Shown here: in pieces, positions 16,791 through 64,000 of the stretch
How the letters are laid out: every line of letters begins with the position of its first letter
Position numbering within the stretch: position 1 is the stretch's first letter
Origin: Isoetes taiwanensis
Taxonomy: Eukaryota; Streptophyta; Lycopodiopsida; Isoetales; Isoetaceae
Reading direction: 5' to 3'
NCBI GenBank assembly: GCA_021234155.1
Contig: JAJEKV010000040.1
Location: forward strand, 2,333,799 to 2,397,798
DNA length: 64,000 bases
Translations under genes and position numbers: made by a program
Notes under the pieces: generated by a model
Seen by the model: the letters and a program-made list of their open reading frames with translations, nothing else
Told to the model about the DNA's origin: nothing
Database searches by the model: none

Positions 16791-16792
16791 AG

Positions 16793-16804
16793 TGGTATCA
16801 GAGC
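16793..16804 (+). other. Primer-binding site, initiator tRNA-Met type
   Basis: TGGTATCAGAGC is the standard PBS complementary to the 3' end of plant initiator tRNA-Met. It lies 12 bases before the gag ATG. Confidence 0.9.
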
Positions 16805-16815
16805 AACAAGTTTCG

Positions 16816-17593: not shown

Positions 17594-17619
17594 GGGTGAA
17601 AGCATGTTGTAATGGAACA
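17594..17619 (+). repeat. Left TIR of transposon A
   Basis: The 26 bp start GGGTGAAAGC and end GGAACA. The reverse complement is at 29180-29205 with one A/G difference. Confidence 0.92.
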
Positions 17620-17847
17620 CCCTGGGTGTCCCCCCTGTCCCCCCTAAAAATGTGGTGGGAGATATCAAATTTATGATGCGATTTTAAATGTTTGTTTGGC
17701 GCCTAGTGCATTTCTTGAACTGCAACAACCCGATTCTTACGCCACCCGTCCCATTCCAATTTTCTACGCCACCCGTCCCATTCCAATCTCCACCGAACCG
17801 ATTTCTAAACCCATGACCCATCCCCGCCTTTCCTGAAGTACACGGCT

Positions 17848-24590: not shown

Positions 24591-24599
24591 GTAAGAGGA

Positions 24600-33970: not shown

Positions 33971-34505
33971 CCACGCAGGCTCCAACATGCAACCTAGGCT
34001 CCAACATGCCAAGGTGGCTCGAACATGCCACCTAGGCACCAACATGCCACCTAGGGCTCAAACATGCCACTGGCTCAAACATGCCAAGGTGGCTCAAACA
34101 TGCAACGCGGGCTCCAACATGCCAAGTTGGCTCAAACATGCTATGTGGGCTCCAACATGCCAAGGTGGCTCGTGCATGCCAAGGTGGCTCGACATGCCAT
34201 GCCACCTAGACATGACAAGGTGGCTCAAACATGCCACGTGGGCTCCAACATGCCACCTAGGTTCCAACATGCCAAGGTGGCTCAAACATGCCACGTGGAC
34301 TCCAACATGCCACGTGGGCTCTAACATGCCACGTGGGCTCTAACATGCCAAGGTGGCTCAAACATGCCACCTAAGCTCTAACATGCCACCTAGGCTCAAA
34401 CATGTCAATGTGGCTCCATATGCCACGTAGGCTCCAACATGCCACCTAGGTTCCAACATGCAAAGGTGGCTCAGGCATGCCACCTAGGCTCAAGCATGCC
34501 ACCTA
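33971..34505 (+). repeat. 19-bp minisatellite array, plus orientation
   Basis: The same units as the adjoining array but inverted (acatgccacctaggctcca / acatgccaaggtggctcaa). The two arrays together form a large imperfect palindrome centred near 33970. Confidence 0.92.
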
Positions 34506-34660
34506 GGCACTCCAAGTGGTGACATGGCATGTCAAGTAAGCAAGGCCAAGTTTTGACTAGGCCAAAAATGAAAAGATGTCCATCTTTGGTCTTTTCATTG
34601 GGTGATGTTGGCAAATTTTGGGTGACATATGGCTAGATGGTGGTGACGTGACTAGGACTT
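34506..34660 (+). repeat. Left arm of an internal inverted repeat in B
   Basis: ggcactccaagtggtgacatggcatg...gacatatggctagatggtggtgac is the reverse complement, with small indels, of 38505-38640. Both arms adjoin 19-bp arrays, so arm plus array is inverted on either side of a 3.8-kb core. Confidence 0.85.
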
Positions 34661-38504: not shown

Positions 38505-38640
38505 CATCATCTAGCCATGTCACCTAAAATTTGCCAACATCACCCACGAAAAGACCAAAGATGGACATCTTTGGTTTTTGGCCTAGTCAAAACTTGACCT
38601 TGCTTACTTTGGCATGCCATGTCACCACTTGGGGTGCCTA
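38505..38640 (-). repeat. Right arm of the internal inverted repeat in B
   Basis: Reverse complement of 34506-34660, including ctagccatgtcacc, gaccaaagatggacatctttgg and cctagtcaaaacttg. The array of minus-orientation 19-bp units follows directly. Confidence 0.85.
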
Positions 38641-40165
38641 GGTGGCATGCTTGAGACTAGGTGGCATGCCCCGAGCCACCTTGACATGTTGGAGCCGCAT
38701 GGCATGTTGGAGCCCTGCATGGCATGTTGGAGCCACCTTGGCATGTTTGAGCCTAGGTGGCATGTTTGAGCCACCTTGGCATGTTGGAGCCCACGTGGCA
38801 TTATGGAGTCCACGTGGCATGTTTGAGCCACCTTGGCATGTTGGAGCCTAGGTGGCATGTTTGAGCCCACCTTGAGATGTTTGAGCCACCGGGCATGTTT
38901 GAGCCCTGGGTGGCATGTTGGAGCCTAGATGGCATATGTTTGAGCCACCTAGGAATGTTTGAGCCTAGGTGGCATGTTGGAGCCAACGTGGCATATTTGA
39001 GCCACCTTGGCAAGTTGGAGCATAGGTGGTATGTTGGAGCCCGCAGGTGGCATGTTTGGAGCACGTTGGAGCCTAGGTGGCATGTTTGAGCCATTTTGTC
39101 ATGTTGAGCCCTAGGTGGCATGTTTGAGCCACCTTGGCATGTTTGAGCCTAGGTGGCATGTTGGAGCCACCTTGGCATGTGGGAACCACCTTTGGCATGT
39201 TTGAGCCTAGGTGGCATGTTTGAGCCACCTCCAGATGTTGGAGCCACCTTGGCATGTTCGAGCCTAGGTGGCATGTTGGAGACCACGGCATGTTTGAGCC
39301 ACCTTGCCATGTTAGAGCCTAGGTGGCATGTTGGAGCCCCGTGGTGGCATGCTTGAGCCACCTTGGCATGTTGGAGCCCACGGGCATATTTGAGCTACCT
39401 TGGCAAGTTGGAGCATAGGTGGCATGTTAGAGCCCGCGGGCATGTTTGAGCATGTTGGAGCCTAGGGGTGGCATGTTGGAGCCACCTTGGCACGTGGCAT
39501 GTTGGAGCCCACGTGGCATGTTTGAGCCTAGGTGGCATGTTAGAGCCACTGTGGCATGTTGGAGCCTAGGTGGCATGTTTGGAGCCAACTTGGCATATTT
39601 AAGCCTAGGTGGTATGTTGTGAGCCACCTTGGCATGTTGGAGGCTAGGGTGGCATGGTGGAGCCCACGCAGACAGTTTGAGCCACCTTGGCATGTTTGAG
39701 CCTAGGTGGCATGTTGGAGCCTAGGTGGCATGTTTGAGCCCACTCAGCATGTTTGAGCCTAGGTGGCATGTTTGGAGCCTAGGTGGCATGTTGGGAGCCT
39801 AGGTGGCATGTTTGAGCCTTGAGCCCAGGTGGCATGTTGGAGCCACCTTGGCATGTTGGAGCCCAAGTGAGCCCCCAGATGGCATGTTTGAGCCTATGTG
39901 GTAGTGTTTGAGCCACCTAGGAATGTTGGAGCCTAGGTGGCATGTTGGAGCCCACGTGGAGATATTTGAGCCACCTTGGCAAGTTGGAGCATAGGTGGCA
40001 TGTTGGAGCTCGGCAGGTGGCATGTTTGAGCACGCTGGAGCCTAGGTGGCATGTTTGAGCCATTTTGTCATGTTGGAGCCTAGGTGGCATGTTGGAGCCA
40101 CCTTGGCATGTTTGAGCCTAGGTGGCATGTTAGAGCCACCTTGGCATGTTGGTGCCCAATGCTAT
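38640..40165 (-). repeat. 19-bp minisatellite array, minus orientation (1.5 kb)
   Basis: About 75 units of the tgttggagcctaggtggca / tgtttgagccaccttggca pair, with occasional 2-6 base losses. It mirrors the plus array at 33971-34505 across the 3.8-kb core. Confidence 0.92.
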
Positions 40166-40934: not shown

Positions 40935-43191
40935 TATTCGATCCCGCAAAGTTGAGTTTGATTTTATTTCTGCCGCTTGGTCAAAAAACTAAAATTACCT
41001 TCTATTCCTTTATCAAGTGATGTAGAATTATCTTCGCTCTTGAATGTGGCCCCTCCTCCGCCTTTCTTCATTTATGGTCAAGGATGTTGAATTTCAATTG
41101 CGTGGATATATCTCAGAACGTTCTTTCATGGTTTCTAATCTTGGAGGTATGGATATTATTCTAGGCATGCCATGGCATAAGGCTATTAATCCTCTTATAG
41201 ATTGGAAAGTGTATTGTTATGTTATCCTTTGAAGGGGGTAAAAGACCTTCAAGTTTGTGAAGGATGATATTGTGTCCCTATTCCAACATTCGCTGTTATA
41301 CGCTTTTAAACGCTTGGCAATGAAAACTCATTTTGTGTATTTGGTGGTTTTAAGGCCCTAAGTCCGATGTATCTCCATTAAATGAGCGCCAAACCATCTT
41401 TTTGCATTATTTTGATGATGTCTTTTTCAATGAAATTCCACAAACTTTGCCATCCCAATGTTTGAGGACTACGTGATTGATCTTCTTCCCGGAAAGAACC
41501 TCCTAATCAAGCTCCTTATTGAGAATGCATGGCCAACAAGTTGAGATTAGGCGCGCCTTGATGAGTTACTTCAAGTCGGATTGATCCGGCCATAGTACTT
41601 CACCTTTTGGTGTCCCTGCCTTGTTGGTTAAGAAAAAAGATAATTCTTGGCGATGTGTATAGATTATCGCGCTTTGAATAAGATAAATCAGAAAAGAATA
41701 GGTTTCCTATCCCAAGGGCGGATGATTTGTTTGATCAACTCCAAGGTGCTACAGCTTTTAGCCGCCTTTGATCTTAAGTCGTGGTATTGGCAACTTAAGG
41801 TTGCGCCTCAAAGATGTTCACAAGATCGCATTTAGGACAACCTTTGACATTATGAGTTTTTAGTCATGCCATTTGGACTTATAAACGCGCCTACCTTCTT
41901 TTATGAGGCTAATGGGGCTTAATATTTGAAGATGTGCATGGTGTTTATGTTGTCGTGTTCTTTTGATGACATATTAGTTTTTAGTAAGTCCGAGGAAGAT
42001 CATTACTTGCATTTATGGAGGTTTTTTTTTTGGGTTGAGGAAGAGTCTATTACTCTTAATCCTAAGAAAAGTATATTTTTTTCAATCGGAAATTGAATAT
42101 TTGGGTCATATTGTTTTTTGCGAGGGTCTTAAAGTTGATCCCGAAGAAGGTACAAGCAATTGTGGATTGGCCTATACCTACCTTCTTTGTCGTGATTATG
42201 CCTTTTTGGGTTTATGCAAGGTTATTATAGGAAGTTTGTACAGAATTTTTGCTCGTTTAGCTTCAGATTTATATTTGTTGCTACTTAAAAGATGTTCCTT
42301 TTTTCCAATGGAATCATAATCATCAGTTTGCTTTCCAAGTTTTAAAGGATGCCATGGTTAATCCTCTTGTTCTACGCTTACAAAGTTTGGTCTACCTTTC
42401 TTTGTTATGTGTTGATGCAAGTGGTATGGCTTTTGGGCGGTTTTTGATGCGTGATGGTCATCCTATTGCTTATGAAAGTCGGAAATTTTCTCGGACAATG
42501 TGAAAGTAGATATAGTGTTTATGATAAGGAATTTCTGGCTGTCATTCATGCTTTGAAAGTGTGGCATACACTATCTTATAGGGTCACAGTTCATATTTTG
42601 ATGACCACCAAAGCATTAGGCACATTGTTTCACGAAAACATTGCTCTGAAAAGGTTAATTGAAATGGGTTGCTTTTTATGCAGCAATATGATTTCTCGAT
42701 GGATTATTGTCCCCGGTAAAGAGAATGTTGTAGCTGATGCTTTAAGTAGACGTTACGCTAGATTTGTTCTCTTTCTATAACACAATCCAACCATTTGGAG
42801 GAAATGAAACCATTGTATGCCACTTGACCTCGATTATAAGAATATTTGGTTGTTAGCTCAAAGTGGCAATGCATATGGATATAAGATCGCTAATGGGTTC
42901 TTGTATAAAGGTCCAAAGCTATGCATTGCAGCGGAACTTTAGGGTCACTTATTCTTAAAGAAGTCCATGATGCACCTATTATGGGTCATCGCGGGCGTAG
43001 GGGCAACTTTGGCAAAGCTTGAACCATACTTTATTTGGCCTCGATTGCGGAGAGATGTTTTGGTTCATATTCGCATTGTGTACTTGTCAACGGATAAAGA
43101 AAAGTTTAACAAGAAACCTCATGGTGTTCCTTTATCCTGCCTATTCGAGGGGCAAAGTGGGGAACATATCACTATGGATTTTATTGTTGGT
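40935..43191 (+). pseudogene. pol: Host Ty3 pol: protease end, reverse transcriptase, RNase H, integrase start
   Basis: Protease remnant 40938-41230 (FDFIS; NLGGMDIILGMPWHKAINP). RT about 41600-42130: MCIDYRALNKI near 41646, DLKSWYWQLKVAP near 41770 and the active-site FDDILVFSKSEEDH near 41965-42005. RNase H about 42350-42780 (YDKEFLAVIHALKVW near 42520; GKENVVADALSRR near 42716). Integrase zinc-binding region and the start of the core, MDFIVG (about 43174-43191). Frameshifts are frequent. Retroelement C interrupts the integrase core at 43191, and it resumes at 63299. Confidence 0.9.
43187..43191. other. Target-site duplication of retroelement C, left copy
   Basis: TTGGT, immediately before the LTR start. 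The right copy TTAGT (63294-63298) differs at one base. Confidence 0.8.
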
Positions 43192-44783
43192 TGTGATGTC
43201 CCTCATTTCCTTTATCGATGCCCGAATTCTAAGGAGGAGCATTCCTCCCATGCCCGCGAATGGGGCCATCCACCGACTCACCCCATGGGGCGAGCCGCTA
43301 GGGGAGTGGATGTGTCATTAATCTGCCTTCCCTCATCTATCTCAAGGAAGCGTGAACAAACAAATGTGAGCACAACTAACAATATACAAATACAATCACC
43401 ATAGAGATAGTAACATCAATTAGAGATAACAATACCTTCATAGCAACAATACAAAGGGGAGATCCTACCCCGGCTCATGGACTCAAGGGGATGACCGACG
43501 GGCTAGGTCTCCGTAGAGTTCATTGCACAGCATAATTCATGGCAATGGATTTGGTCGCATAGAACATGGCTTAGGTAGTCCACTCCATCCGCCTTCTCCC
43601 GCGTACACTTTGGGTGCAGTAGGGCAAAGTGTTGGGACTTGACCGTAGCCTGCCGGGTGAATAGCCGAGGGGCTACTACCGCTGGGTTGCATCTCCCAGC
43701 CCCCGATGAGGCAGGAGGCGAAGTTGCCTCTCCTCCGTGAGGCATCATCCATGCTCATCGCAGCGCTAGAGGGCCACCGCCCTTATTCGACTTGAACTCA
43801 CCGGAAGGTCATTTCCACCACCCCATGAGTGTCGAAGCTCATGCCTTGCCCACACGCCAGCGACAAGCCATTAAGCCTAGCCGGCCAGAGACCCCGATAG
43901 GTTTTACTACCGTGAGGGGTCAATCTGCGATGAGACAAGTTCCTCCTTATCAACCTGCCTTGCCCCTTCACCCACAAAGCCGTGGGCTCCCTCGCGGCAC
44001 GGGCCGCATTTATGTGGGAACTAAGGTGCTATGCTAGGAGCATCTACTACACAGCCTTTTAGGTCTCTACCCCCTTCCCAAAACAAGGAGATCACAGAGT
44101 GGAATACATGCAATATCACGTAACGTAAATAGAGAATCACATCAATCTATCTACTTAACATCCAATGTTAGGTTCATTCGTTAGAGTCTCGATCTAGGGA
44201 TCTACAAGGCTTCCAAGAGATGATCTAACATACTAAACTTCGGTATATTGCCACGCCCAAAGACGGTTTTGTACCAACGTAACAACTAGATACCTGCTCC
44301 CTTGGCTTGCTCCCCGATCCCTCTGAAGGCGCCCATGCTCCTCGATCTTGCCAAGACGGTTGCTACTCAACAACCTACTAGCAAACCGACTTTCTGAGAC
44401 CCGGCAATGCGATTTTGAGTCTTACCTTGGCCGAATTGGCCCAGGGAACCCTAAATCAAAGAGGAAAGGAAGCTCTAGAAAACCCTAATTGGCAATGAAA
44501 GGAGAGCTAGGGTCTAGGGTTTTAGCCCTTATATAGACCCTATCTAGGTTAGGGCATCCATATGGGCAAATGGCTTTAAGCCATTTGGAAATGGATGAAC
44601 AAGGAACCTTTTTGTTGTGTATGTTTAATTACATACCCAACATCCAAGGTTGCCCCCTAGGTGCAGCCTTTAGCTCCTAGGTGCAACGCTATCCTGTTCT
44701 CAAGTACATGTCAATTGTGACATGTAATGCGGGACGGGCAGTATAATATAATATTGGGAGCATATATTATGCCGAACGCCACA
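43192..44783 (-). repeat. 3' LTR of retroelement C
   Basis: 1592 bp. On the minus strand it starts TGTGGCGTTCGGC and ends GACATCACA. It matches 61688-63293 almost throughout, with many small indels. Confidence 0.93.
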
Positions 44784-44796: not shown

Positions 44797-45900
44797 GACT
44801 TGATGTCGCCCTCAAGATCACTGCCTCCCCACCTTGGGTACCGTGATATCCCCGCAATTACAACAACTTATATATCCATGTTATATTAGTCACCTCGTGT
44901 AATATTTATAGTTTATCAGAATTGTACTATGGTGAGAGGCTCTTCCGTCCTCTACTTCATAATCTACTATTAACAAAATTAACATCAATTATAGTTTTAA
45001 GGTTTCAAACTAAAAACTTCTCATCGCCTCCTCACAACACATTATGGCAAAATTATGTGTTGTGAGTCCTCAGAAGGCCTCCCTCCTGCCGCCGGTCCCT
45101 TCTAATTGCCTCAAGCAGGATGCACGCCACGCTAGTACATATTTAATTATTATTATAAGGGTTGGTTGTAAGGGAACCACCCATTAATACAATTATATGG
45201 ATGCAAGGCATATCTCTCGGCATAGGAAGATTATGTTTCTCCCATCCTGGCCGAGGAGACAGCGCCCTATCATGCCTATATGCCGCCATGCCTACACAGT
45301 AGTTGCCTACTGGGACTTGGGTCCTTCCCAGATATGGGGCTGAAGGGCCCCTCCCGCAGGCATTGACTAGGAGGTGCTTTTCCTATCAATGCATTCCCTA
45401 ATGACCTCCTTTCTTTCGGGAGGTCGCGTCTATACGTGGAACGCAGTAGACTTCAAATCTACCTTCCACTCAATCAAGTTTTAAACGCCATCATGCCCTA
45501 CATTGACATTACACCACGCCTAGAGAGCATCGTAGTGGTCTCATCATCGGGTAGCAACGCGATGCAACCCATGCCTAGCATAGGCTGCATCGCGTAGATT
45601 ATCCTTAGCTACACATGCTTCAATCTAAACCCAAATCGACATGCCCTCAGCCCATTTCTTGGTTGTTGATGTCGACTACTTTTGATGTGAGCCGACCCTT
45701 TGCATTGCTCCATAAACTCGGGTAACGCTTCTTAAGATCTCGATTCCAGTATTCCACGTAAGGCCTTCCCACCGTAAGTGCTTCCCACTTCACAAGATAT
45801 TGGAGAAATTTTGACCTTCTTGTCTTCTTATAAGATCTATCAAGAAGGACTTCCTGGACGATTTCAATGTGCTCGTCCGGCCATTTCTAAAAACTCATTT
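44797..45900. other. 3' non-coding region of retroelement C
   Basis: Between the integrase end and the PPT no coding segment is recognised. The sequence is mixed composition with no clear repeat. Confidence 0.5.
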
Positions 45901-45904
45901 GTCT

Positions 45905-48470
45905 CTAATACTTCCTGGGGTTTGGGGTGTGCCTCTTTAGCAAACTTATGTGGAAAAACTTTATGGATTTTAAGATGTGCCGGGCAGGTCCAACTTGTAG
46001 GATTGGGTACCCTACTCTCTTCTCTATCCCGAAAGGTCCAGCCCATCTTGGAGCAAGCTTCTTGCAATTGCCGATGCGAGCTTGGCCTGCTTGACTTTGA
46101 TCTTCAACCACACTTTGTCTCCCCACTTCAAATTCTCTTCTTGTCCTATGCTTGTCTACGATGCTTTTCTGCCTCTTCTTTTTTGCAAGAAGATATCCTC
46201 TCTTCCTCCACCAAGTCTTGCATTTCAAAGCATCTGGCTGGGAGACTTCCACCTTGGACATTGTGGTTGTGCCAAGTATCCCGGTAAGACATCGATACAC
46301 CGTGAAGTTAATCATAAAAGGACTCATCCGCGATGACTCTCGCTTGGTGCCAAGTTGTATGCAAACTCTACTAGGTGGATGAAATCATCCCACTTGGATT
46401 GCTTGTTCCATACATAGCTTCTTAACATATCTTCGATGATCCCGCTTTGTCCTCTCCGTCGACCATCCGTTTGGGGATGATATGCCGCGGCTCATCGAAA
46501 AGCTTTGTCCGGATGGTGGTGAATAGGTCCCGCCAAAAGGCACTCATAAACTTGGAGTCTCTATCCGAGATTATCTCCCTTGCATGCCATGGAGCCTAAA
46601 AATCTCCTTAACAAATAGGTTGGCCGTGGTCTAACGTCGTATCTGTCCCGCGACTCGCACAAAGTGTGCCATCTTTGACAACTTATCTACTACCACCATC
46701 AAGGCATCTTTGCCCCTTGCTATTCTTGGGAGTCCTCGTAATAAAAATCCATACTTATTACCTCCCACTTAGCGCTTGGCACGGCAATGGTTCTAAGGCA
46801 CATGGAATCCGAGCTGTTCCGCCTTTGTCTGCCGGGCATATCCGCACTCTCTAATATATCTTGCTATTTCCTTCTTCATGCCGGGCCAATAATAATCGCT
46901 TCTAATCTTGATGTCTTCATGAACCCCCGTGATGCCCCGCTATGGGACTATTGTGTGTATCATTCAAGATAAGCTTTCTAACTTGAGAAGATTTTGGTAC
47001 ACACAATTTATTTTATAATATAGCAAGTTTTCTTCCTTCTTGTAGTGCCTGAACATCTCCCTTTCCTTGTCGGTCCCTGGCCTCTTTTGAAAGGCTGGCC
47101 CAAACTTCCTTTGAAGTCGGAGGTCCGCCGGCAATGTTTCCTCAATCTTCTTTCCAAACTCACTTTACGAAAGTGTTGATATGGTGTTACAATGAATTCT
47201 CGTTGCCAATGGCTTCCTCGAAAGGGCATCCGCGAACCACATTGAGCTTCCCCGGCTTATAACTTATCTCAAAGTCATATTCTTCAAAGAATTCCATCCA
47301 TCTCCTTTGCCTCAAATTGAGGAGAGCTGCCGTAAATATGTATTGAGGCTTTGATGATCTGCGGTCTAGCTGGAATTTTCTTCCAAATAGATAATGCCTC
47401 CAAATTCTTAAAGCCCTTACTATAGCCGTGGAGCTCTTGATCGTCGTTGGGTATGCTGCTCGGCTGCCGCTCAACTTCTTGGAATCATAGGCCACTACTC
47501 TTTTCCTCGCATGAGGATCGCTTTGTTGCTATCCCCGCTAGCATCTGTTGCTACGAAGCTTATCTTTGGTCGGATCCGGGCAAGACCAATACCGGGCCCT
47601 TGCGTCGTCAAAGCTTCTTTTAGTGTCTCAAATGCTTTTCGGGCCTTGTTTTGCCAATGAGTTGCCCAATCTTTTTATCTTCCCACCTTTGTGAGATCCG
47701 TTAATAGCCGCCACCTTGGCAAAATTCTTCACAAATCTTCTATAATAGCCTGCTAGTCCTAGGAAGCTCCCCGACTTCATGCGTATTCTTTGGGCCGCCG
47801 GCCGATCACGGGCTTCTATCTTCGCAGGTTCGTGGAAATGCCTTCTTTGCGGATCACGCGTGCCCCAAGTACTCCACTTTTTCCGCGCGGCGGCACTTCG
47901 ATAACCGCGAAAGAGTTGATGCCTTCTTAACTTTTCAAGCACCTTCCTCAAATGTTGGGCGGTTCCTCCACGTAGACTTTTGCAGACACCAAGATATCGT
48001 CGAAGAAGACTATGATGAAGGAATCTAGAAATTGGCGGAAGACGCCGCTCATTAACCTCATGAATGTGGTCGGGCGATTAGACAATCCAAAGGGCCTAAC
48101 CGCGGAACTCATAGTGCCCATATCTTGTCCCTGACGCCGCCTTATGGATGTCTTCTTCTTTGATCCTAACTGTGATATCCTCATCCGAGATCTATTTTGG
48201 AGAAAAATCTTCGGCTCCCTCGCAAATCGATCCATTAAGTCATTCCACCTAGGCAAGGCATACTTATTTTGATGGTGTGCTTATTTAACCGGGCGGTAAT
48301 CAATGCACATCCTAAGGCTCCCATCCTTCTTCTTCACAAAGAGAATAGGGGCTCTAACGGGGAGACACTAGGTCTTATGAACCCTAGGTCTAGCAATTCT
48401 TGCAATTGCTTTTTAACTCCGCCAACTCCTCGGTTGACATCCTATAAGGTGCCTTGCTTGTAGGTTGGCC
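45905..48470 (-). pseudogene. pol: pol of retroelement C: RT, RNase H, integrase (frameshifted)
   Basis: Read leftward: RT around 48350-47950 (SLRMCIDYRPVK; RPFGLSNRPTTFMRLM; active site IIVFFDDILVSA near 48020-47980), RNase H near 47640-47187 (FEEYDFEISYKPGKLNVV near 47300-47240), integrase core near 46600-46540 (ISDRDSKFMSAFWRDLF), and the integrase C-terminus 46327-45905 (KKLAPRWAGPF; IKFFHISLLKRHTPNP). The many frameshifts mean no single protein is made from this sequence as written. Indels at CGG-type sites suggest that part of this could be sequence error. Confidence 0.88.
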
Positions 48471-50514
48471 CTGTGTTCAAGTGCTATTTCACACTCGACT
48501 CCTCTATAGGGGGAAGTCGCTTAATCTCATCAGAAACAAATCGCGAAATTCCTCGATCAACTTTGCTATTGGCCCCGGAAGCTTGCTAGATTCTTTGATC
48601 TCTTTATTTCTCGGGCTCCCCGATCTTGGAGCTCAAGCTTAAGGAGATAGGCCACCGCCGCTTTTCTTATGCACTTAAGCAATTTTTCACTACTCATGCA
48701 TTGCATGATTGGGGTTACTTTTTACCTCGTGGATCTCGATGACCTTGCCCTCGAGTTGTTAAGGTCACCTTTACGCTTCCCACAATCGGCGATTGCTCCT
48801 ACCGGGTCCAAGATATTCCATTCCAATAATCAGATCATACTTGCCTATATTCATGACTTCCGCCTCCCAATGCAACATTAACACCTGGCAAGTCTACATT
48901 GAAGTTTATTCTCTTCCCTGCTGTATGCCTAACTGCTCCATTGGCTAAGACGACTGGGCCTGGCTTGACTTTAACGGCTTTAACTTCAACATGCTTACCA
49001 TCCTAGGGGATGCAAAATTATGACTCGCTCCCCGAAGTCTATCAATACTATAAAGGATTTCTCTTTGGCTTTTCCGGCCGTTGAGATCACCTTATACCGA
49101 TATTACGCATTTCAGATCAATAGCCGCAAAATGTGACACTCACCATGGATGTAATCCGCGTTTCGCCGTCGCCCTCAGGTCCGGATGGTGTCTCCCATCC
49201 CAGCCCGCCAATGCCGCGATTCATTATCGGGGCAATTGTTGGTTCTATGCCCCGGGCCGGAAGCATATCGAAACATAGCTGCTTCTCTATACACTCCTCG
49301 CTTCTTCTCCTTGGGAATGGATCGCAGAAATTGCCTCACCGCTTTGGAGTAGTTAGACCCGCCTCCTTGCTCCTTGAAGCTTACCTCGCTTTCTTTTCCC
49401 TCGCTTGCCACCACTTGTGTTGCCTTGCTTCCCATAATTTGAATTGTAATCGCCTTGCTAGCTAATCACCGGGCTTGCCGCCTTTGGGCCCCGTCCTCCG
49501 TAGGCTCTTCCCTTATCCCCGAAATATTGCTGCCTTGGTGCCCGCTTGCTCTTGCGGTCCCCATTCCTTTGCAAGCTTATGGCCTTTGCTTCCGCCTCTC
49601 GACATTAAGACTCGGGTTTATTGCCCTACAAGCTTAAGCGGATCTCCCCTCGCTCAAGCCTTCAATATAGCCTTCCACCGCATGCTTTTCACTCAACTTT
49701 GGCACATAAAGCCTTAGTCTCATGAATTCCCTCCGTGTATTTCTCGACTGATTTGTTGCCTTGTTGCGCCTCTATAGAACCGCCGCATCATGTTGCACCT
49801 ATGTTCTCTTGGCACGTAATGATGTTTGAACGCCTTGGCAAACTTCCCCAATTTGCAACCGCCCCTCGCCAGCCCATGAGCTTTAGCATACCCCTTCCAC
49901 CAAATTCCGGGCCGCCCTTGAGATTTGCCGCTGCTACCCCGGCCTTTGTCTTTATCTTTTCATGCCATAGGCATTGCCATACTCGCCATCATCTCGCCCA
50001 AACCCACGCCTCTGCTTCCATTCGACTGTTTTCTCCAAAATCGCTCTAACTTCGGCTTTCCACACATTACTAAAGGGCGGAGTCAACTTTCTTCTGGTAA
50101 TCGGGATCGTGGATCCGCCCCTCATCATGGTTTGATCCCCGCCGACCGAGGCATGCCTCTTCTTCCTCGCTCTTGATGCCGAATCAGACCGAAGCCGGAG
50201 CTCGAGGATCCCTAACTAGGGGAGATCTTCTCCTTCCGCTTCTTCCTTCGTAATAATCGTTCTCGGCCACCGGGCGTTTAAGAAGGGCACATTCTCGTCC
50301 GTCCTCCTATTGTCTGCGGGCCTGCTAGCAATGCCCTTATGTCGTGGATGTCGATCCGACTGGGATAGCTCCTCCTGGGTTTACCGCTTGAGATTACGGG
50401 CAGATTCCTACCGAGGCGCCTTTGTGGGGTATGTTCTTGTTCTCGCTGCCCTTCGTGTTCATCAAGGTTTCTAGGTACTCTAGCCGCATGCACATTAGAG
50501 TACATTCCGATCAT
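48471..50514 (-). pseudogene. gag: gag and protease region of retroelement C (frameshifted)
   Basis: Leftward frames begin near 50514 (MIGMYSNVHAARVPRNLDEH). A capsid-like region near 50000-49700 includes KFAKAFKHHYVPREHR. A zinc-knuckle relic occurs near 49280-49235 (RYASGPGHRTNNCPDNE), where the Gly-His and last Cys are seen but the first Cys pair is damaged. The region to 48471 should hold the protease (FIVLIDFGERVI near 49050, with Gly where the Ser-Gly of DSG is expected nearby). Assignment rests on position and these remnants. Confidence 0.65.
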
Positions 50515-54799: not shown

Positions 54800-57300
54800 A
54801 TGTATGGGTTTTCAATTTGAAATGAGTAGAAAAGATATTCAGTAAAGATATATGCAGATTAAATGATAATATAGCCTAGCAATCTCACGCATAAAGAGCT
54901 AGCTATTGGACCAGTGCACAACAAACTCAAGCATCTTGCTTCTTAGCTCCTGTTCTTCCTTGACAATCTGGAAAGAAACAATAGTCCATTAAACTGTAGT
55001 CCATCTATGTTTGTTCTCAAAAGAAAAATAATTTATCTCGATAAGCCTGATATTTATGTATTTACAAGCAGGTTCCCTGATGAGCTTAGTGGATCTTCGT
55101 CCATGATGTTATATTAGTATGGGAGAGTTATCTGCCTCATAGTAATAAGCAAGCTTTCTAGCACCAAGTAATAAGCAAGTTTTTCTAGCACCAAAGGCAG
55201 GCAGTTGACCACGGAGCCAGATTATGATTATGTTCAAGATTGGGCCAGTTGAACATGTATGTAAACATTGACAGTTCCTACTATCCACGATTATTATATC
55301 CTGACTTTAATAAGATCAATGTCTTTAAAACAAAAACCGTAACAATGGACATAACGAGATATAAGTTTATTTTTATCTGTACATTGAATCTTCTTTAGAA
55401 TAGAGTGGTGCACTACATCATACAATGCACTACACCATACAACAAGATTTTACTGAAAATGACATCATCTTCTATGCATGTATTACACATGTTTATTTCT
55501 CTTCCATGAAGAAAGAAAAGTTAGGACAAATCTTTAGTTATTAGCCACCAAAGAGCATTTTGACTTAACACAACAAATTTGTAAGTGAAAGTCCCTAATC
55601 GACAAAAGATCCTATTGACAATATGGCTGAGTATCACACCTAGATCGGATGGCAACCTAAAAAAAAACACTTTACATTTTTGCCATTGAAGCCAATTGTT
55701 TGTTGGCACATCTTGATTCTTCCAAAGTATTATAGTTATGCAACATTTTGTCCATTCCATGGTGTCGCACAAATTGAGTACAAGAATAGCAAAAGAAATC
55801 TCTTACACATATAAGCACGTACTAAGAAGAACGGACTAGCGGGTACGATGTCGCCATGACAAATTCTTGTATTTATGTTCTTATATTTATTCAAAGATTT
55901 ATGATGGGTCGAATAGAGATATGTTGTTTTGTTAACAAGTGTCCATGGTTTCTTTCCTTATATTTATGCAAGAATTGATGATGAGATCTTGCACGCCATG
56001 TCGTCTAGGGTTCATGATGAAAATAAATGATGTTTTGCTATCAAATATCCATGGTTCTTTTTCCTTAACTTCATGCAGCATGATGAGAAGTATGTTATGG
56101 TCATCTAGGGATATGAGAATATATGCTAGGTATAGACATTTGGTAACACCACTTTTGTAAGGAGAATGCAGCATTTGTGTTTGACATTTTCATAAATATT
56201 AACATAGTCTATTAATTGCATATGCGAAACATTTATAAGTAAATATCCTAGCCCATATCGAGGTACACAAATATGCAGTGTTGTTATAGATCTATAATAA
56301 TCATCCACACTCCCAACTTTCTCTGGTGCAGAGAAGCGACAATCCTTCAGATATTCATACGGTGACAAGATTGCATATTTTTTTTTTTTGCCTTCCATCC
56401 TTTACATTGTTTGAAACATCACCTTGAAGCAAGTACTTGAAGCAAGTTGCAAATCTGTCAGGAACTTTGACTAATCTTATCTTAGCTTAAGGAACTAAAT
56501 AGAGCGGACATTTGCTTAGATGTAGTTTGCGGTGGGCTTTTACTGCATTTTTAAATTAGTTATTCAAATAAACTTATTAATTGGTGATAGGTTAACCAAA
56601 TTGCTATGGACCATATTGTAGCTTTTTTATTTTAACGTTCTATTTTGGCCACGATGCAGATGTAAAAACTATTACATGCATTATGTGAATTGCAAAGCAG
56701 AAGTTGTGGTCATGCTTAACCCCTGCATAATCAATGCTCTTTATGACCCATGGGCACTTATTGTTTTTAGGTTTTCAATAAGACCAAGCATCAACAATAT
56801 AATGTTGGCCATGGAGATCCTATGAATTTGTTACAAAATTTGAACTTATAAACAATGCTTTATACATGTAATGAACTTTAGAATGTTTGAATAAACACTA
56901 GGATTGCTCGCTCGAATGATCGAATTGAGCTCAAGTTCTGCTCAGGAATAGAGATGCAAGATTACATCATCAATATAAATAATCACCTTTAGAGTGTTTG
57001 AATAAACATTAGGATTGCTCGGGTGATCAAATTTAGCTAACTTTTGCTCAGGAATTGAGATGCACAATTGCATGCAAGAGCTTTTTTTGGTCAAACATGA
57101 ACTGATATGTTTGTTGGCATACTTCCAACCTGTTATTTTCAAACCTTTTTGTTGTTTGTCAGCCTGTTCACAACAATCAAGATCATCCTATTCTTAAATA
57201 TATCTACTATACTCAAAATAACCCTGACCATCAAAAGCAAAGGAGGAAAAACCCAATGTTGTCAACCTTCTCTTTATATTAATTTTTTAATTTAATCCCA
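54800..57300. other. Helitron interior, 3' part
   Basis: AT-rich sequence with no supported gene. A segment near 56885-56945 (tttgaataaacactaggattgctcg) is repeated near 56996-57058, an imperfect duplication of about 60 bp with 111-bp spacing. Confidence 0.45.
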
Positions 57301-57375: not shown

Positions 57376-58935
57376 TTACTCTTGAAATTTCTTGAGGTAG
57401 TCAGGGTGGTCCTCCAAAAATTTCTTCACTTGGGCCGTACCTAATGACCCTCTTAAGTTCCTGAGGATATTTGTTGTCGTTCCTCCTTGGAGTGCTGCCT
57501 CCATGTCTTCAATTCTCCTATCTGATGTATATGCGGCTGTCACTGCCAATCTGCCCTGCCGCCTATAAGGGATTGCAAAGTCGAAGATGGTCAATGCAAT
57601 CGCTCTCTTGATCAGGACAACATGATCGATGTTTGGTGCTAATCGAGCATGGTGTCCAAACCCTGAGAGGGCGATAAGCATAAAGACTCCTTCTTCGCCT
57701 CGTGGGCTAAATTGGCGGTGGATAACCGCTATTCTTCCGATCCCAAAGAAGAACGGGGGTAGTATCCGGGAGTGCTTTATCGCGGCCCCTCGCCGGGCAG
57801 ACGAGGAAGTTGCCCCTGCGGCTCCCCCGCTAAGTCGCCCACTTGTACCTCCTCTAGCTCTCGAAATCACGTGCACTGAGCCTCCTTAGGTTGATCTGCC
57901 TCCATGCCGCTTGGTTGGTGGGGCGGCGCACAGAATAAAGCCAGTCGATGTGGACTTGCCCTTGATGCCCATTTGTTCCCGGGATCGCCATGAACTCCTC
58001 CGAGGGCAATTCCCCTTCGGCCATCATCTCACCGGATGCCCGCGATAAGCTTCTATATCCGATGATGTCTCAAGGTGAAGGTGCCGGCTTCTCTTATGCC
58101 GGGATAGGGAAGTCCCGAGCCGGGACATGAAGTCGTCGAGGTCCACTTTCTTGCCGTGAGAAGATGCAAAATCTCATCTACCCTAAGACCCTCCAAGTCG
58201 CATCGGGGGAGATTCTTAATGTCATGGAGGGTTAGATATGCCTCACTTTGCTATGAATACGGTGTCAAACTTGTGATTCCTCAGTGGTGGGGCTCTTCTT
58301 GTTGCTCTTAGTCCCTCTTGAAGCTTTGAATCTCTTTATTACACTGCTTTGCCTCTCTTGCTCCAGATCCGGTCTTGAGGGTGGCTCGTATTCCTCCTCC
58401 TCTTCTTCTTCTTCTTCTTGCTCATTACAGAAAGTCGCATCCGTTCCTCCTCCTTCTTTATGACCATGGCTATGGGTTCAACTTCTAAAGGTTGAATCAG
58501 GGTTCCCTATCCGGGTTTGACCCGAAAGAGATAGAAAGATGGCTACTGATGCTGTATAGGAGAAGTACTTCCTCCTATTGACAGAGATGGACATGTAGTT
58601 GGGAAGGCGGACTGCTTTATTCTCTAAATACTTATCTACATTTGGGATATCTTGCGTGGCTTGACTTGAGGGGCGTGTTAGGTGCAAAAATATCCTATAC
58701 AAGGTGGGAGTTCTACCAAAGATGGTCCTATCTTGGCGTGGAACTCGACATGATGATGCTCGGTAGAAGGGAGTGGCGTTGATAGTAGCTTCAATGTCGA
58801 AGTTCCCTTCGGAAGACATCGAAGACGATTCGATGTCAAAACCACATGAGCCGTGGGCATTGTACCATCGCTTGAATGAAGAAGTGGCCATGAGCACCCG
58901 AGGAGCTGGGGGATGACAAGATGATGTTGAAGCAC
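57376..58935 (-). pseudogene. ORF2 of retroelement C, unknown protein (~500 codons, frameshifted)
   Basis: The leftward coding region starts near 58897 (MLMATSSFKRWYNAHGSCGF) and runs to a stop at 57376-57378. Blocks in order: FGRTPTLYRIFLHLTRPSS and NYMSISVNRRKYFSYTASV (58740-58540); a run of about nine Glu (58420-58390); a basic linker; HQGQVHIDWLYSV near 57950; GIGRIAVIHRQFSPRGEEGVFML (57745-57670); and LGTAQVKKFLEDHPDYLKKF at the end. At least three frameshifts. No domain recognised. The position between the H3-like ORF and gag, and the same strand, suggest a third gene of C rather than gag itself. Confidence 0.5.
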
Positions 58936-59177
58936 CCTAAGGATCAGGAGAAATCGGCTTGGAGCAGAGTTTTAGGGTGTAAGGCTTAAAATGACACTTG
59001 GGGGTCCCATTTATAGGCAAAACCCTAATTTTGGGAAAATTTTAGGTTTGCAGTTCTCTGAATTTCTAGGGTCTAGAGGTATAATTCATAGGCAAACTGA
59101 GCTTGGGAATTAATTCTAAGGGTCTCTAGGTAATAGTTTTGGTTCGTCTAAGGGCAATTTGGGTCACTTTGGGCGTG

Positions 59178-59658
59178 ACCACTCACACAGTGCGCCATGG
59201 TGGGATCGGTTTGCAAACCGAATGGGTCTGGGCGCACTCTGTGAGGGGTGAGCCCCTATTTAGGTCAATATTGATACTAAACTGGAGAACTAAGAGTATA
59301 ATCCTGGATATCTCATTGAGATAACCTGGATTGAGCCTTTACTCGCCTTATTTGGGCAAGTTTTGATCTAGATTGGGGGTCGACCACCCACACAGTGCGC
59401 CAGGGTAGGTTTGGATCTCAAACCAAATGGGTCTGGGCGCACTCTGTGAGGGGTGGAACTCCATTTGGCTGATAGTTGGCCAGTTTTGACAAACTATGGG
59501 TCAAATCCTACTAATTAAGGTGAGCTGGGTCGAATGGTATACCTACTTTCTGCATTTAGGCAAGATTGGGCACCAAACTATGCTCGACCACTCACACAGT
59601 GCGCCAGGGCAGAGTCGGTTTACAAACCGAACTGGTTGGGGCGCACTCTGTGAGGGGT
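59178..59658. repeat. Three palindromic repeats (~73 bp each, 204-bp period) downstream of the H3-like ORF
   Basis: Units at 59178-59250, 59382-59455 and 59586-59658. Each reads accactcacacagtgcgcc...ggtttgcaaacc...gggcgcactctgtgaggggt, with arms that are reverse complements and a palindromic centre. Intervals are exactly 204 bases start to start. In transcript direction they lie after the H3-like ORF. Confidence 0.9.
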
Positions 59659-59791
59659 AGGACCAAAATGCTTGGTTTTTGTTCCAAATTTACTATTTTC
59701 TAAATACAGAATTCGGTAATGCATCCTACTTACACTCGATTAATTTACCAAACTACAAGCTTATACTAGAGAAAAGGTTATTTACAACAGT

Positions 59792-60973
59792 TCAAAAGGG
59801 TTCCTTCTTAATAGACCGCGCTAGCCTCATATCTTTAGGCATACAAGTTACTCTCTTGGCGTGCTGGGCACACGCAACAGAGTCTTCGAAGTGGTGTACG
59901 ATGTGCTGCTCCGACGCCTCCTGCAGTGCAAGCAGCATGTCGTCCGTGACCCATTTGGACGGGTCGAACTCCTGCAAAATCTCCCTTGTTAGACGTGCAA
60001 AGGAAGCTCTGGGGATGAGAAAGCCATAGCTCTGCTGGAAGTGCTTGATTTCCTGGGCCGCCCTCGCGAATTTTGAGTCCGCCGACCTCTTCATCGGCTT
60101 CTTCGGAGGGGTTGGCTGTTCCGGTGGGGGCTTCAACGTGTTTTTCTTCGTCGGCCGACCTCCTTCAATGGCCCTCACCCTGTGTTCTTCATAATATTTG
60201 GAGTATTCTTCGTACATTTTCATGTACGAAGTGTACTCCTTCAACTTCTTCCGGTACTTCAAGTCCCGTTTCAGCACATAAGACTCCCTTTGCGGCCTCG
60301 GTTTCTTGGTGTTATCGCTGGGGTGCTTCGGCGACGGCCACCTTGGGTAGGGCGGTGCATTAGCCACAGGGTCTTCATCCTCCGGTGCTGGGTTTGAAGG
60401 CCCCGAACCCTCTCCCGGTTCGTGTCCTCCCGCTCCCTCCTCGGATTCGGAGTCGGACGAAGATGGAGGCTTCTCAGGATCCGGCTCCTGTATGGTCACT
60501 CCTATGGCCGGCGTCTTCTTCTTCTTCGGCTTCTTCGCCGGCTCCTCCGAGTCCTTGCCTTTTTCTGCTCTTACCCTCTCCCGCTCCTCTTTGCGCTTCC
60601 TCCTTTCTTCCCTTCTCTATTCCTTCTCCTCCCTCCTCTTTCTCAGCTCTTCTTTTTCCTTTCGGCGCAGCTCCGCCTTTGATTTCTTGGCTGGCCTTCC
60701 TCTCTTTTCCTCTTAAGCCTTTCGGTTCCGGCTCACGGTTCCTCGCCGTCTCCGAAGATCTCCCTCTCGACTCCTTCTCAATCGCCAGGGTCCTCCCGAT
60801 TGCTGCTCGATACATTCCTCGCTCTTGGGGTTAGGGTTAGGTGGCTCCTGTGTGCCTCCCCGTTTCTTCGATGTGCGCTTGTGCAGAAACCGCCTTCTCG
60901 TCGGACGGCTCCCTGGCGCCGACATAACCGGGTGGCATAACCTTGCGGCGGTTTGTTTCGTCTGCGGTGCCAT
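59792..60973 (-). CDS. Histone H3-like protein encoded by retroelement C (two in-frame stops)
   Basis: Read leftward, one frame of 394 codons runs from ATG 60973 to the stop at 59792, with internal stops at 60713-60715 (TAA) and 60617-60619 (TAG). Residues 1-11 are MAPQTKQTAAR, matching the H3 tail around Lys4. A long Lys/Arg/Glu-rich, then Pro/Ser/acidic linker follows. The last 95 residues (60079-59795) are a histone fold: EIKHFQQS, LIPRASFARLTREILQEF, LLALQEASEQHIVHHFED, CAQHAKRVTCMPKDMRLARSI. By hand it aligns to canonical H3 without gaps from the alpha-N helix to alpha-3, with about half the residues identical. The H3 tail marks around K9/K27 (ARKS) are absent. A neighbouring frame (60815-60474) is open over the first stop, so a compensated frameshift is possible. 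Nucleosome incorporation is inferred. Confidence 0.85.
60079..60973 (-). other. Extended N-terminal tail of the H3-like protein
   Basis: About 300 residues precede the histone fold, where canonical H3 has about 45. Segments: TKQTA start; Arg-rich RPTRRRFLHKRTSKKRGG; Lys/Glu coil (about 60712-60560) including AELRRKEKEELRKRREEK; PKKKK basic patch (about 60533-60515); acidic/Ser DSESEEGAGG (about 60448-60420); and YKKYYEEH-like Tyr-rich stretches near 60230-60180. Low complexity, probably disordered. Confidence 0.7.
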
Positions 60974-61055: not shown

Positions 61056-61187
61056 TAGAAACCCTAATTTTCTATTTATAGGAGGTGGAATTTAGGGTTG
61101 GGACCCGCAATTCATATGGGGAAAAGAAACTAGGGCATTAGCAAAGATAATGAGGTGTTCATTTGTTGACTATACCCTAAAACATCC
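61056..61187. other. Leader between upstream palindrome and H3-like ORF
   Basis: Short AT-rich segment directly 5' (in transcript sense) of the H3-like ORF. No TATA or splice site can be assigned with confidence. Confidence 0.3.
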
Positions 61188-61476
61188 ACCACTCACCAAG
61201 TCTTTGGGCGCATTGGATTGCCAATCTAATGAGTCCGGGCGCACTGTGAGGGGTCGGCATTGCTTTTGAGGTTACTTTATAATTCACGCAGGTTTTCTTA
61301 ACGATATAAAATACAAACCCTGTCTAGAACTAAGGGAATAAGCCGAATTACACTATTAGTTCACTTAATTTGTACACCTAATTAGGTCAATCTGAGGTCA
61401 ACCACTCACACACAGTCTTTGGTTCAGCCTTTGGATTGCAAACCAGAATGGGCCCGGGCGCACTCGTGGAGGGGTG
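61188..61476. repeat. Two palindromic repeats (212-bp spacing) upstream of the H3-like ORF
   Basis: Units at 61188-61252 and 61400-61476 have the same form as those at 59178-59658 (accactcac...ttggattgccaatct...gggcgcactgtgaggggt) but are more diverged. They lie between the PBS and the H3-like ORF. Confidence 0.85.
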
Positions 61477-61675
61477 GCCTGTTCTTTGGCAAATTAGATT
61501 GGGGATGCTACACTTCACTAGCAATCTAGCATGGAGCTATGTTCTACCCCAAAATTGGAAAAATTTTCCAATTTTTTCGGGCTCTCTCTCGCAGGGTGGC
61601 TATACCCCAAGACTCGAATCCACCGTTAGTCCTAAGGAAAAATGGCGGTCTTTCGATCTTGGATGCCAAGATCAT

Positions 61676-61687
61676 GCTCGATACCAC
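61676..61687 (-). other. Primer-binding site of retroelement C
   Basis: On the minus strand GTGGTATCGAGC directly follows the LTR end CCGCA. It matches the tRNA-Met PBS TGGTATCAGAGC except for one missing base. It fixes the minus orientation of C. Confidence 0.8.
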
Positions 61688-63293
61688 TGCGGACGCCCCC
61701 TACTCTTATAATCGATGCCAAAGATCGTGATTCGGCAAGGAGGAGCATTCCCCCCAGCGCCGGCACCGACAGGGCCATCCACTGACTCTACTCCCATGGG
61801 GCGAGCCAAGAAGGGAAGAGTGGATGTGTCATTCACCCGCCTTCTCCTTGGTCGACCCTATCTCAAGGAAGCGTGAACAAACAAACGTGAGCACAACTAA
61901 CAATATACAAATACAATCACCATAGAGATAGTAACATCGCAGAGATAACAATACCTTCATAGCAACAATACAAAGGGGAGATCCTACCCCGGGCTCGGAC
62001 TCAAGGGGGATGACTGACGGCTAGGTCTCCAGAGTTCATTGCAGACAGAATTCATGGCAATGGATTTGGCTGGCATAGAACATGGCTTAGGGTAGTCCAC
62101 TCCATCCGCCCCTCCCGTGCACACTTTGCAGAGTAGGCTGAAAAGTGTTGGGACTTGACCGTAGCCTGCCGGGTGAATAGCCAGAGGGGCTACTACTGCT
62201 GGGTTGCATCTCCCCAGCCCCGATGAGGCAGGAGGCGAGTTGCCTCTCCTCCAGAGGCATCCATGCTCATCGCAGGCGGCTAGAGGGCCACTGCCCTTAT
62301 TCGACTTGAACTCACTGGAAGGTCATTTCCACCACCCCACGAGTGTCGAGCTCATGCCTTGCCCACACGCAGTGACAAGCCATTAAGCCTAGCCAGCAGA
62401 GACCCCCGATAGGCTTTACTACCAGAGGGGTCAGTCTGCGATGAGACAAGTTCCTCCTTATCAACTGGCCTTGCCCCTTCACCCACAGCCAGGTGGGCTC
62501 CTGTGCACGGGCCGCATTTATGTGGGAACTAAGGTGCTATGCTAGGAGCATCTACTACACAGCCTTTAGGTCTCTACCCCCCTTCCCAAAACAAGGAGAT
62601 CACAGAGTGGAATACATGCAATATCACAGAACAGAAATAGAGAATCACATCAATCTATCTACTTAACATCCAATGTTAGGTTCATTCGTTAGAGTCTCAG
62701 ATCTAGGGATCTACAAGGCTTCCAGAGATGATCTAACATACTAAACCGGCATATTGCCACGCCCAAAGACGGTTTTGCACAACAGAACAACTAGATACCT
62801 GCTCCTTGGCTTGCTCCTGATCCTCGGAAGGCGTCCATGCTCCTGATCTTGCCGAAGACGGCTGCTACTCAACAACCTGTTGTGCAAATCCGACTTTTCG
62901 GAGCCTGGCAATGCGATTTTGAGTCTTACCTTGGCCGAATTGGCCCAGGGGAACCCTAAATGCGAAAGAGGAAAGGAAGCTCTAGAAAACCCTAATTGGC
63001 AAAATGAAAGGAGAGCTAGGGTCTAGGGTTTTAGCCCTTATATAGACCCTATCTAGGTTAGGGCATCCACATGGGCAAATGGCTTTAAGCCATTTGGAAA
63101 TGGATGAACAAGGAACCTTTTGTTGTGTATGTTTAATTACATACCCAACATCCAAGGTTGCCCCCTAGGTGCAGCCTTTAGCTCCTAGGTGCAACGTTAT
63201 CCTGCTCTCAAGTACATGTCAATTGTGACATGTACGTGTGACGTGGTAGTATAATATACGTATTGGGAGCGTATATTATGCTGGAACGTCACA
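61688..63293 (-). repeat. 5' LTR of retroelement C
   Basis: 1606 bp, partner of 43192-44783. Minus-strand start TGTGACGTTCC, end CCGCA. A TATATAAGGGC-type promoter motif is seen on the minus strand near 63038-63048 (also near 44528-44538 in the other LTR) and is the likely TATA box. Confidence 0.92.
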
Positions 63294-64000
63294 TTAGTCT
63301 TCCTCCCAGTTCTCGCAAGAACACTGTCATTTGGACAATTGTTGATTGTTTAACTAAGCACGCTCATTTTATTCCTTGTTCGGATAAATTGACGGCTTAT
63401 AGTGCGGCTACGCTCTTTATCAAAGAGGTATTTAGGCTACATGGGTTGCCAAAGCTTATTATATCTGATCGTGATACAAAGTTTACTAGTAAATTCTGGA
63501 AGGCATTGTTTATGCAATTTGTGTATAATAATACCTATCAGTCTACCATAAAGATGACCCCTTTTCAGGCGGTCTATGGTCAGCCTGTGCGGGAGCCACT
63601 CTTTCGAGTGTGTGAGGATGTTCCAGCTGCTGATGATTTGGTTATTGAGCATAAGGATCTCATAGACTTGCTTCAAGCTCGTATTCGAGATGCTCAAGCA
63701 TCTTTTGCAAATAAATCATCTAAGTTGCGGCAACCAATGGTTTTTAAGGAAGGAGATTGGGTATGGATGAGGATCCATAAAGGCCACTTTAAGAAAGATG
63801 CGGGCAAGAAGGATCTTAAGTTGGCACCCCGTTTCCATGGACCATTTCAAGTTATTAAAGTGGTCAATGAGAATGCATATCAATTAAGATTGCCTCAAGG
63901 TTGGAAAATGCATGATGTAGTGAATGTTTCATTCCTAAAGGCTTATCATGGTAAGGAGTTACCTCAACTTGGGAGGTTAACTGAGCCAGAATTGATTGAT
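63294..64000 (+). pseudogene. pol: Host Ty3 integrase, second part (window end)
   Basis: It resumes the integrase core after C: LPPSSRKNTVIWTIVDCLTKHAHF, then HGLPKLIISDRDTKFTSKFWKALF (about 63440-63510), then an abrupt jump to YNNTYQSTIKMTPFQAVYG (about 63523-63580). The stretch normally between these, with the catalytic Glu of the DDE triad and the HPQTDGQ region, is missing without a frame change. The C-terminal GPFQVIKV and VNVSFLKAYHG motifs follow (63835-63955). The frame is open to the window end. Confidence 0.9.

Follow-up and report, generated by a model that had tools for sequence, protein, structure and literature searches.

A histone H3-like gene before gag in two chromovirus families of Isoetes taiwanensis

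Introduction

In Dothideomycetes, hAT DNA transposons have captured histone H3; according to the papers describing them, these elements occur in tens to hundreds of copies and are inactivated by RIP in P. fijiensis and related genomes (PMC6710886, PMC3538342). They are the nearest precedent found, as a literature search for a retroelement-encoded histone, whose coverage mostly excludes subscription journals, gave nothing beyond these fungal papers. Like them, the elements described here are mobile and multiply an H3-like gene. The fungal carriers are DNA transposons with TIRs and a transposase, whereas those of Isoetes are LTR retroelements of two divergent families, in which the H3 also differs by its long-term purifying selection and its fusion to long N-terminal parts. 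Assignment to the hAT-captured class was rejected, the Isoetes gene being part of an LTR-bounded unit with gag-pol.

The Selaginella chromoviruses SM-Galahad, SM-Diluvium and SM-Cranky are 4.9–7.5 kb long and have no histone gene in section 2.1 of their account, which gives SM1-Galahad two short extra ORFs downstream (PMC3350952). On that account, the Isoetes elements share with them a Ty3/Gypsy gag-pol with chromodomain, a Met-tRNA-type primer binding site (PBS), a 5-bp target-site duplication (TSD) and TG..CA LTR ends; unlike them, family 1 of Isoetes reaches about 13 kb and has ORF1 (H3) and ORF2 before gag.

Viral histones, such as bracovirus H4 and those of giant viruses, are found in DNA viruses. 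Here too a core histone comes from a selfish element, in this case an H3 in a retroelement, with H4 not amplified. CENH3 and other eukaryote H3 variants have a divergent H3 fold and a long N-terminal part, and loop 1 of CENH3 is lengthened. The Isoetes element H3 likewise combines a divergent fold with a long N-terminal part; unlike CENH3, it does not have a lengthened loop 1, it is encoded by a retroelement, and in family-1 copies chosen by their start it keeps a canonical tail start. Membership of CENH3 was not supported, as no loop 1 insertion was found in the one representative aligned per family.

The assembly of I. taiwanensis comprises 1658.30 Mb in 204 scaffolds and 909 contigs and used Nanopore reads (PMC8566536). 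The word "histone" is absent from the main text of the I. taiwanensis (PMC8566536) and I. sinensis (PMC10541799) genome papers. Here we describe two related chromovirus families that carry a pre-gag gene ending in an H3 fold and under purifying selection, a finding that we regard as nearly certain.

Element C in the window

The window, as used here, is the whole stretch of 64,000 nucleotides that was analysed. Its minus strand holds element C, which is a degraded chromovirus forming a single unit (Table 1). A sequence-only reading of this DNA had claimed that a Ty3-type element carries an H3-like gene, located between PBS and gag on the coding strand. Both claims were upheld: the fold gave a significant histone profile match (Pfam PF00125, E 2.3e-22, 80 bits, cut-off 26.4), the best PDB matches of the window protein are H3 (histone H3, E 4.3e-19), and within the element the LTR and PBS were located on one side of ORF1 and gag on the other. 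The same reading described a 394-codon frame, which does not stand, as the window copy has, ahead of its final stop, two in-frame stops at residues 87 and 119; its open part is 274 aa long (59795–60616) and its tail is altered to MAPQTKQTAA. The H3 alignment, described as gap-free, is nearly so, with one residue absent at the start of the fold, as also in the family representative. Thus the window copy of ORF1 is broken; intact copies exist elsewhere in the genome, and to the intact ORF1 of L006/L039 it is 71% identical over 399 columns.

Table 1. Features of element C in the window
Feature	Position	Strand	Basis or remark
5' LTR	61688..63293	-	starts TGTGACG, ends CCGCA; edges from sequence and homologous L039
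Primer binding site TGGTATCGAGC	61676..61686	-	
Two leader hairpins, ~75-nt family	61185..61480	-	alignment; weaker in window copy
ORF1: H3-tail start, charged spacer, H3 fold	59792..60973	-	two in-frame stops break window copy
Histone H3 fold of ORF1	59795..60079	-	95 codons, stop-free
Three ~75-nt hairpins, ~205-base spacing, ORF1-ORF2 interval	59165..59675	-	homologues folded in L039
ORF2-like frame, part one	58478..58936	-	homologue is L039 6069-6563, inside 6-kb alignment
ORF2-like frame, part two	57376..57885	-	alignment to L039
6.7-kb insertion relative to L039	50611..57336	.	
gag, degraded	49282..50209	-	tblastn 36%, E 1.6e-26
Protease, reverse transcriptase and RNase H, degraded	47226..49035	-	tblastn; queries family-2 gag-pol and family-1 RNase H
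Integrase, degraded	46172..47012	-	tblastn
Integrase C-terminal SH3_Tf2-1-like domain and chromodomain	45644..46168	-	tblastn 59% to L040 2047-2580
Polypurine tract AAGGTGGGGAGAA	44784..44796	-	sequence reading; identical in L040
3' LTR	43191..44783	-	outer edge degraded

The two LTRs of the window copy are 90.3% identical, and no TSD was recognised around it. The counterpart of its PBS in L039 is TGGTATCAGAGC, which we take to be of the initiator-Met-tRNA type. In the frame at 45905–46384 the SH3_Tf2-1 domain scores under the curated Pfam cut-off of 30 (E 2.6e-05, 24.7 bits); in the L040 counterpart both SH3_Tf2-1 and Chromo clear theirs. A Pfam search with the two ORF2-like frames of the window returned zero matches.

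Two alignments to L039 abut at L039 7718–7726, yet lie 6.7 kb apart in the window, marking the insertion. Long terminal repeats were not found in it when its two ends were compared. One frame within it (56945–57187, minus strand) has a YIDDVI motif, presumably Copia-RT-like.

In family-1 elements a hairpin of about 75 nt recurs in five near-copies on either side of ORF1: two stand in the leader, the other three before ORF2. In L039 they lie at 3570–3890 and 5405–5920 with RNA fold z scores of -3.6 to -5.9, the homologues of the leader pair having -5.7 and -5.9. The leader inverted repeats of family 2 (L028 165–341) are unrelated to them.

The window has other contents. The end of another Ty3-type integrase with SH3_Tf2-1 (63242–64000, plus strand) adjoins the 5' LTR of element C. 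Two LRR receptor-kinase gene copies (1–2075 and 15586–16608), which we assume to be malectin-like, are about 94–96% identical over shared stretches, and the second stops close to a Ty3 gag frame at 16762–17676. Repeats of one large family, in direct and inverted orientation (24616–25280, 33063–34515 and 38633–40157), are about 75–97% identical and yield repeat-coded open frames, for example 24455–25252, and similar frames occur in L062.

Family 1 and its ORF1 product

We read 27 family-1 copies, consisting of the 8 best H3 matches and 19 picked for open frames of at least 368 aa. Sixteen of the 27 run without interruption from a MAR[TAI] start to the stop codon. The MAR[TAI] filter defines these 16 as full ORF1s, and such a start-based choice favours the tail count; L050, open from MACTKQTTRIT, was left out by it, and in L058 TKQTARIV directly follows a stop.

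The 16 intact products are 379–421 aa long; they begin like an H3 tail, continue with a charged spacer of about 290 aa and finish with the H3 fold. Among these MAR[TAI]-picked ORF1s, ARTKQT and R8 are unchanged in all 16 and A7 is kept in 14; residue 9 is K in 13, I in two and V in one, and position 10 is V in every copy, after which the tail diverges. In H3, K9 and S10 serve silencing and mitotic marking, and the tail start that family 1 keeps is the part used by host H3K4 readers and writers. The fold matches PF00125 in L006 with E 4e-23, and in one representative 47 of 100 positions match host H3.

L039/L040 holds a family-1 element that is anatomically complete and about 13 kb long, with ORF1 (H3) and ORF2 before gag. 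It has LTRs that are 94.2% identical, the 5-bp TSD AAGTA, a PBS and a polypurine tract (PPT), and it encodes gag, RT, RNase H, integrase and chromodomain in the standard gag-to-integrase order (Chromo of L040: Pfam E 5.3e-11, over the cut-off). Downstream of the H3, the deep family-1 copy L064 has ORF2, gag and RT, L063 has ORF2 alone in the stretch read, and L062 has an ORF2-like frame followed by sequence without assigned identity. The frames at L040 8727–9829 (minus strand) lie outside the family-1 element and are presumably of a Helitron-type PIF1 helicase.

A second family with H3

Fifteen family-2 copies were read, drawn from the 135 non-host matches to canonical H3 described below. ORF1 is open over its whole length in 8 of the 15, and the two ORF1s measured have 409 and 421 aa. 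It consists of an unrelated, orphan N-terminal part joined to the H3 fold; the H3 tail is absent. The fold is closer to host H3 than that of family 1, with 86 of 104 positions matching in one representative and a PF00125 match of E 3.3e-41 in L035. The fold tree places family 2 beside the host H3.3-like gene L023 with support of 96/72, short of firm, and family 1 on a long branch of its own.

Downstream of the H3, L041, L061 and L065 have ORF2, gag-pol, integrase and chromodomain. The Pfam domains of L041 follow in the order Ty3_capsid, RVP_2, RVT_1, RT_RNaseH, H2C2 and rve, and its Chromo match is over the cut-off (E 2e-08). Gene order is alike in the two families, whose gag is 52% and integrase 79% identical. 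The H3 gene precedes gag in both, its place in family 1 being between PBS and gag, and the Ty3/Gypsy chromovirus features found are an LTR pair, TSD, PBS, PPT (family 1), domain order and an integrase C-terminal chromodomain.

The N-terminal part of family 2 (residues 1–290) has no relative among 5.8 billion proteins in a search that reaches proteins sharing exact words, and a PDB search gave one match (E 0.85), nothing meaningful. With the full ORF1 as query, the best 120 of 5,821 matches (8,000 candidates scored) cover 23–41% of its length. The same kind of search with window ORF1 gave 11 matches, all H3-type and each spanning at most 44% of the query; these searches, which reach proteins sharing exact words, gave no relatives in other species. 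One protein, P0007 of the nematode Ditylenchus dipsaci (362 aa), has an H3 part at its start and then a PF27039 domain; the rest looks, on our assumption, hAT-transposase-like, and it may be a further H3 associated with a mobile element.

ORF2 lies between ORF1 and gag (L041 1000–2157, 386 aa; L061 reverse complement 188–1510). Pfam and PDB searches with ORF2 of L041 gave no match, and its omega is 0.07 over 272 codons in one family-2 pair. By these comparisons, ORF2 is a second orphan gene of the element.

Genome-wide expansion and linkage

The genome searched comprised 1,658,258,908 bases in 1,110 contigs. With the H3 part of the window copy as query, 7,935 loose first-look candidates were obtained; the best 150, namely the window and 149 others, were scored and all match, with 74–100% identity and E 2.7e-40 or better, an in-match stop being listed for 23 of them (counted by eye); agreement on this scale lies well outside chance. 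Canonical H3 as query gave 9,022 such candidates, and the best 150 scored comprise 15 host H3 genes (96–98% identical) and 135 others at 71–86%. The same method with H4, the sole other histone compared, gave 69 candidates; scoring every one of them left 43 matches, namely 16 full-length genes at 99–100% and others that are partial or weaker. The expansion therefore concerns H3 and not H4. Judging by these loose candidates, of which 150 per query were scored, element H3 copies perhaps number thousands.

The high copy number could reflect the expansion of a host H3 gene family whose members lie near retroelements by chance, and the grouping of family 2 with the H3.3-like L023 (96/72, below the firm mark) fits that explanation. 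It is contradicted by linkage: the ORF1–ORF2 region of the elements lies downstream of the H3 in 8/8 family-1 and 15/15 family-2 loci and in 0/15 host H3 loci, the 23 element loci including the two query elements themselves and one weak match (L031, 248 bases). It is also contradicted by L039/L040, where the gene belongs to a unit that is bounded by LTRs and has a target-site duplication. We consider the chance that the host family alone explains these loci to be negligible.

Selection and age

By NG86, pooled pN/pS of H3-ranked copies was 0.049 in family 1 (8 copies) and 0.044 in family 2 (15 copies), and the pair L003–L007 has a dS of 0.471 and a dN of 0.013. Codon models gave a fold omega of 0.106 for family 1 (27 copies; lnL -2594.2 vs -2844.4 at omega 1) and 0.027 for family 2 (15 copies; lnL -1160.1 vs -1346.1 at omega 1), and across the models likelihood at omega 1 was down by 18 to 252 units. 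For the rest of ORF1, omega was 0.137 in the family-1 tail (20 codons, 16 copies), 0.256 and 0.093 in the first and second parts of the spacer (16 copies), and 0.126 in the family-2 N-terminal part (8 copies). Within one family-2 element pair, H3 (0.03), the N-terminal part (0.07) and ORF2 (0.07) can be set beside gag (0.05), PR+RT (0.07), integrase (0.02) and integrase C-end with chromodomain (0.13).

The copies in these estimates were picked by H3 similarity or long open frames, which favours low dN, and we therefore recounted on copies picked by their leader. A 185-base leader query gave 268 candidates, of which 40 were scored; 19 coincide with H3 matches (by eye), and 20 of the other 21 were read, C907:24803238 being excluded. 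The sequence-only reading had named absence of the ORF from other copies as contrary to its claim; 38 of these 39 hold the fold or a part of it. Among the 20 outside the H3 list, 19 hold at least part of the fold, with L067, L069 and L073 keeping about half, and L070 lacks it. In our own reading every one of the 20 is broken, whether by a frameshift, a stop, a truncation or a deletion; the assembly being Nanopore-based, some frameshifts may be sequencing errors.

Pooled pN/pS for 32 leader-picked copies (the 20 and 12 of the 19) was 0.11 in the tail, 0.29 in the spacer and 0.19 in the fold; for the 20 broken copies the values were 0.16, 0.34 and 0.26, and for the 12 shared with the H3 list the fold gave 0.08. 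This ascertainment check thus raises the family-1 fold value from 0.05 in H3-ranked copies to 0.19 or 0.26, still far under 1. The leader-sample pN/pS together with the broken copies suggests a lineage under purifying selection whose inserted copies decay.

The broken state of those 20 copies, and of the window copy, is what a captured H3 fragment carried along without function would show. Such a passenger is contradicted by the fold omega of 0.03–0.11 and by the low leader-sample pN/pS, whether for all 32 copies or for the 20 broken ones; the excess of dS over dN in L003–L007 and the retention of the gene across subfamilies, down to 76–78% identity, also speak against it, and we consider it very improbable. 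Evolution is non-neutral by both pN/pS and codon-model omega, which agrees with the proposal of selection on the fold, as opposed to a random captured scrap; none of the three outcomes named beforehand as contrary to the H3 gene (no profile match, ORF absent elsewhere, neutrality) came true. Judged from these substitution patterns, the H3 is a long-kept gene of the element.

Over 3.3 kb, identity in the closest pairs among the 23 loci reaches 97.1% and 95.5%, and in the two LTR pairs measured it is 94.2% and 90.3%, so nothing in the sample is very recent.

Proposed function of the element H3

The positions taken to be those of the four-helix bundle and of the basic DNA contacts were scored in one representative of each family. 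The H3–H3 four-helix-bundle positions are kept in 7/8 cases in family 1 and 8/8 in family 2, and the basic DNA-contact residues in 10/10 in family 2 and 6/10 in family 1, where R40, R49, K53 and R63 are lost. Because of the latter losses, family 1 may bind DNA poorly. Two of the three HP1-type cage aromatics, at the positions taken for them, are missing from the element chromodomains, which disfavours methyl-lysine reading by the integrase of the element.

As conceivable roles of the H3, the sequence-only reading had offered packaging or marking of element DNA, targeting or alteration of chromatin at insertion sites, and interference with silencing. The kept bundle positions and the kept tail start of family 1 favour the reading of ORF1 as an H3 variant, and the element probably uses its H3 to act on chromatin. 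The ORF1 product would be a nucleosome-competent H3 variant, made alongside the other element proteins and pairing with host H4, the host partner being suggested by the finding of no amplified H4. The ORF1–H4 pair may be deposited on new copies, on the element's own loci or at target sites, where the H3 would bias the local state towards expression or mark the sites. The ARTKQT-R tail of family 1 could be readable by host H3-tail machinery, with K9 variable and S10 replaced, and the long N-terminal parts (the charged spacer of family 1 and the orphan part of family 2) may tether or modulate. Counting against this reading are the DNA-contact losses of family 1, the lack of an H3 tail in family 2, the dependence of the family-1 tail count on start-picked copies, and the broken state of the 20 leader-picked copies outside the H3 list, L070 among them having no fold. 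We hold this explanation in full, a selected element H3 deposited with host H4 as a chromatin variant, to be evenly balanced between true and false, and the chromatin-deposition step taken by itself to fall slightly short of even.

The main rival, which we find rather unlikely, is that the tail (in family 1) and fold of ORF1 act as a mimic or decoy, occupying the readers, writers or chaperones of host H3 and thereby weakening silencing of the element, for which entry into nucleosomes would be unneeded. The presence of ARTKQT-R in 16/16 MAR[TAI]-picked ORF1s, the lower omega of the tail (0.14) than of the first part of the spacer (0.26) and the loss of DNA-contact residues from the family-1 fold are consistent with it. 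A pure tail decoy has no need of a conserved fold, however, and family 2 has no H3 tail, yet its fold is the more conserved (omega 0.027).

The third explanation, that ORF1 is a particle protein coating or condensing element RNA or cDNA in Gag particles or in the preintegration complex, appears quite improbable to us. Histones do have such a role in some large DNA viruses, and the location of ORF1 upstream of gag, its long basic stretches and the resemblance of its selection to that on gag and pol fit it. Against it, the H3–H3 bundle surface is conserved, which a simple coat would not need, and no amplified H4 partner accompanies the H3 (69 H4 candidates, 16 full-length genes).

A more far-reaching form of the preferred reading, deposition as a chromatin variant, is an element-built chromatin identity, where new copies or preferred target sites would carry the element's own H3 in place of that of the host, together with host H4, and other element proteins would recognise this special nucleosome. 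Candidate recognisers may be the integrase with its atypical chromodomain, ORF2 or the orphan part of ORF1. We think this form unlikely; if true, expression or targeting would be self-marked and heritable, which would make it a selfish counterpart of centromeres defined by CENH3.

Implications

Ordinary host H3 genes make up 15 of the best 150 H3 matches scored, which is a warning for annotation. Host control of retroelements usually operates via histone marks, and an element lineage with its own selected and multiplied H3 would act on the material through which this control works. Such a lineage would provide a natural system for selfish DNA shaping nucleosome make-up, with an H3 that has an insert of about 290 residues between tail and fold, and for its acceptance by host readers.
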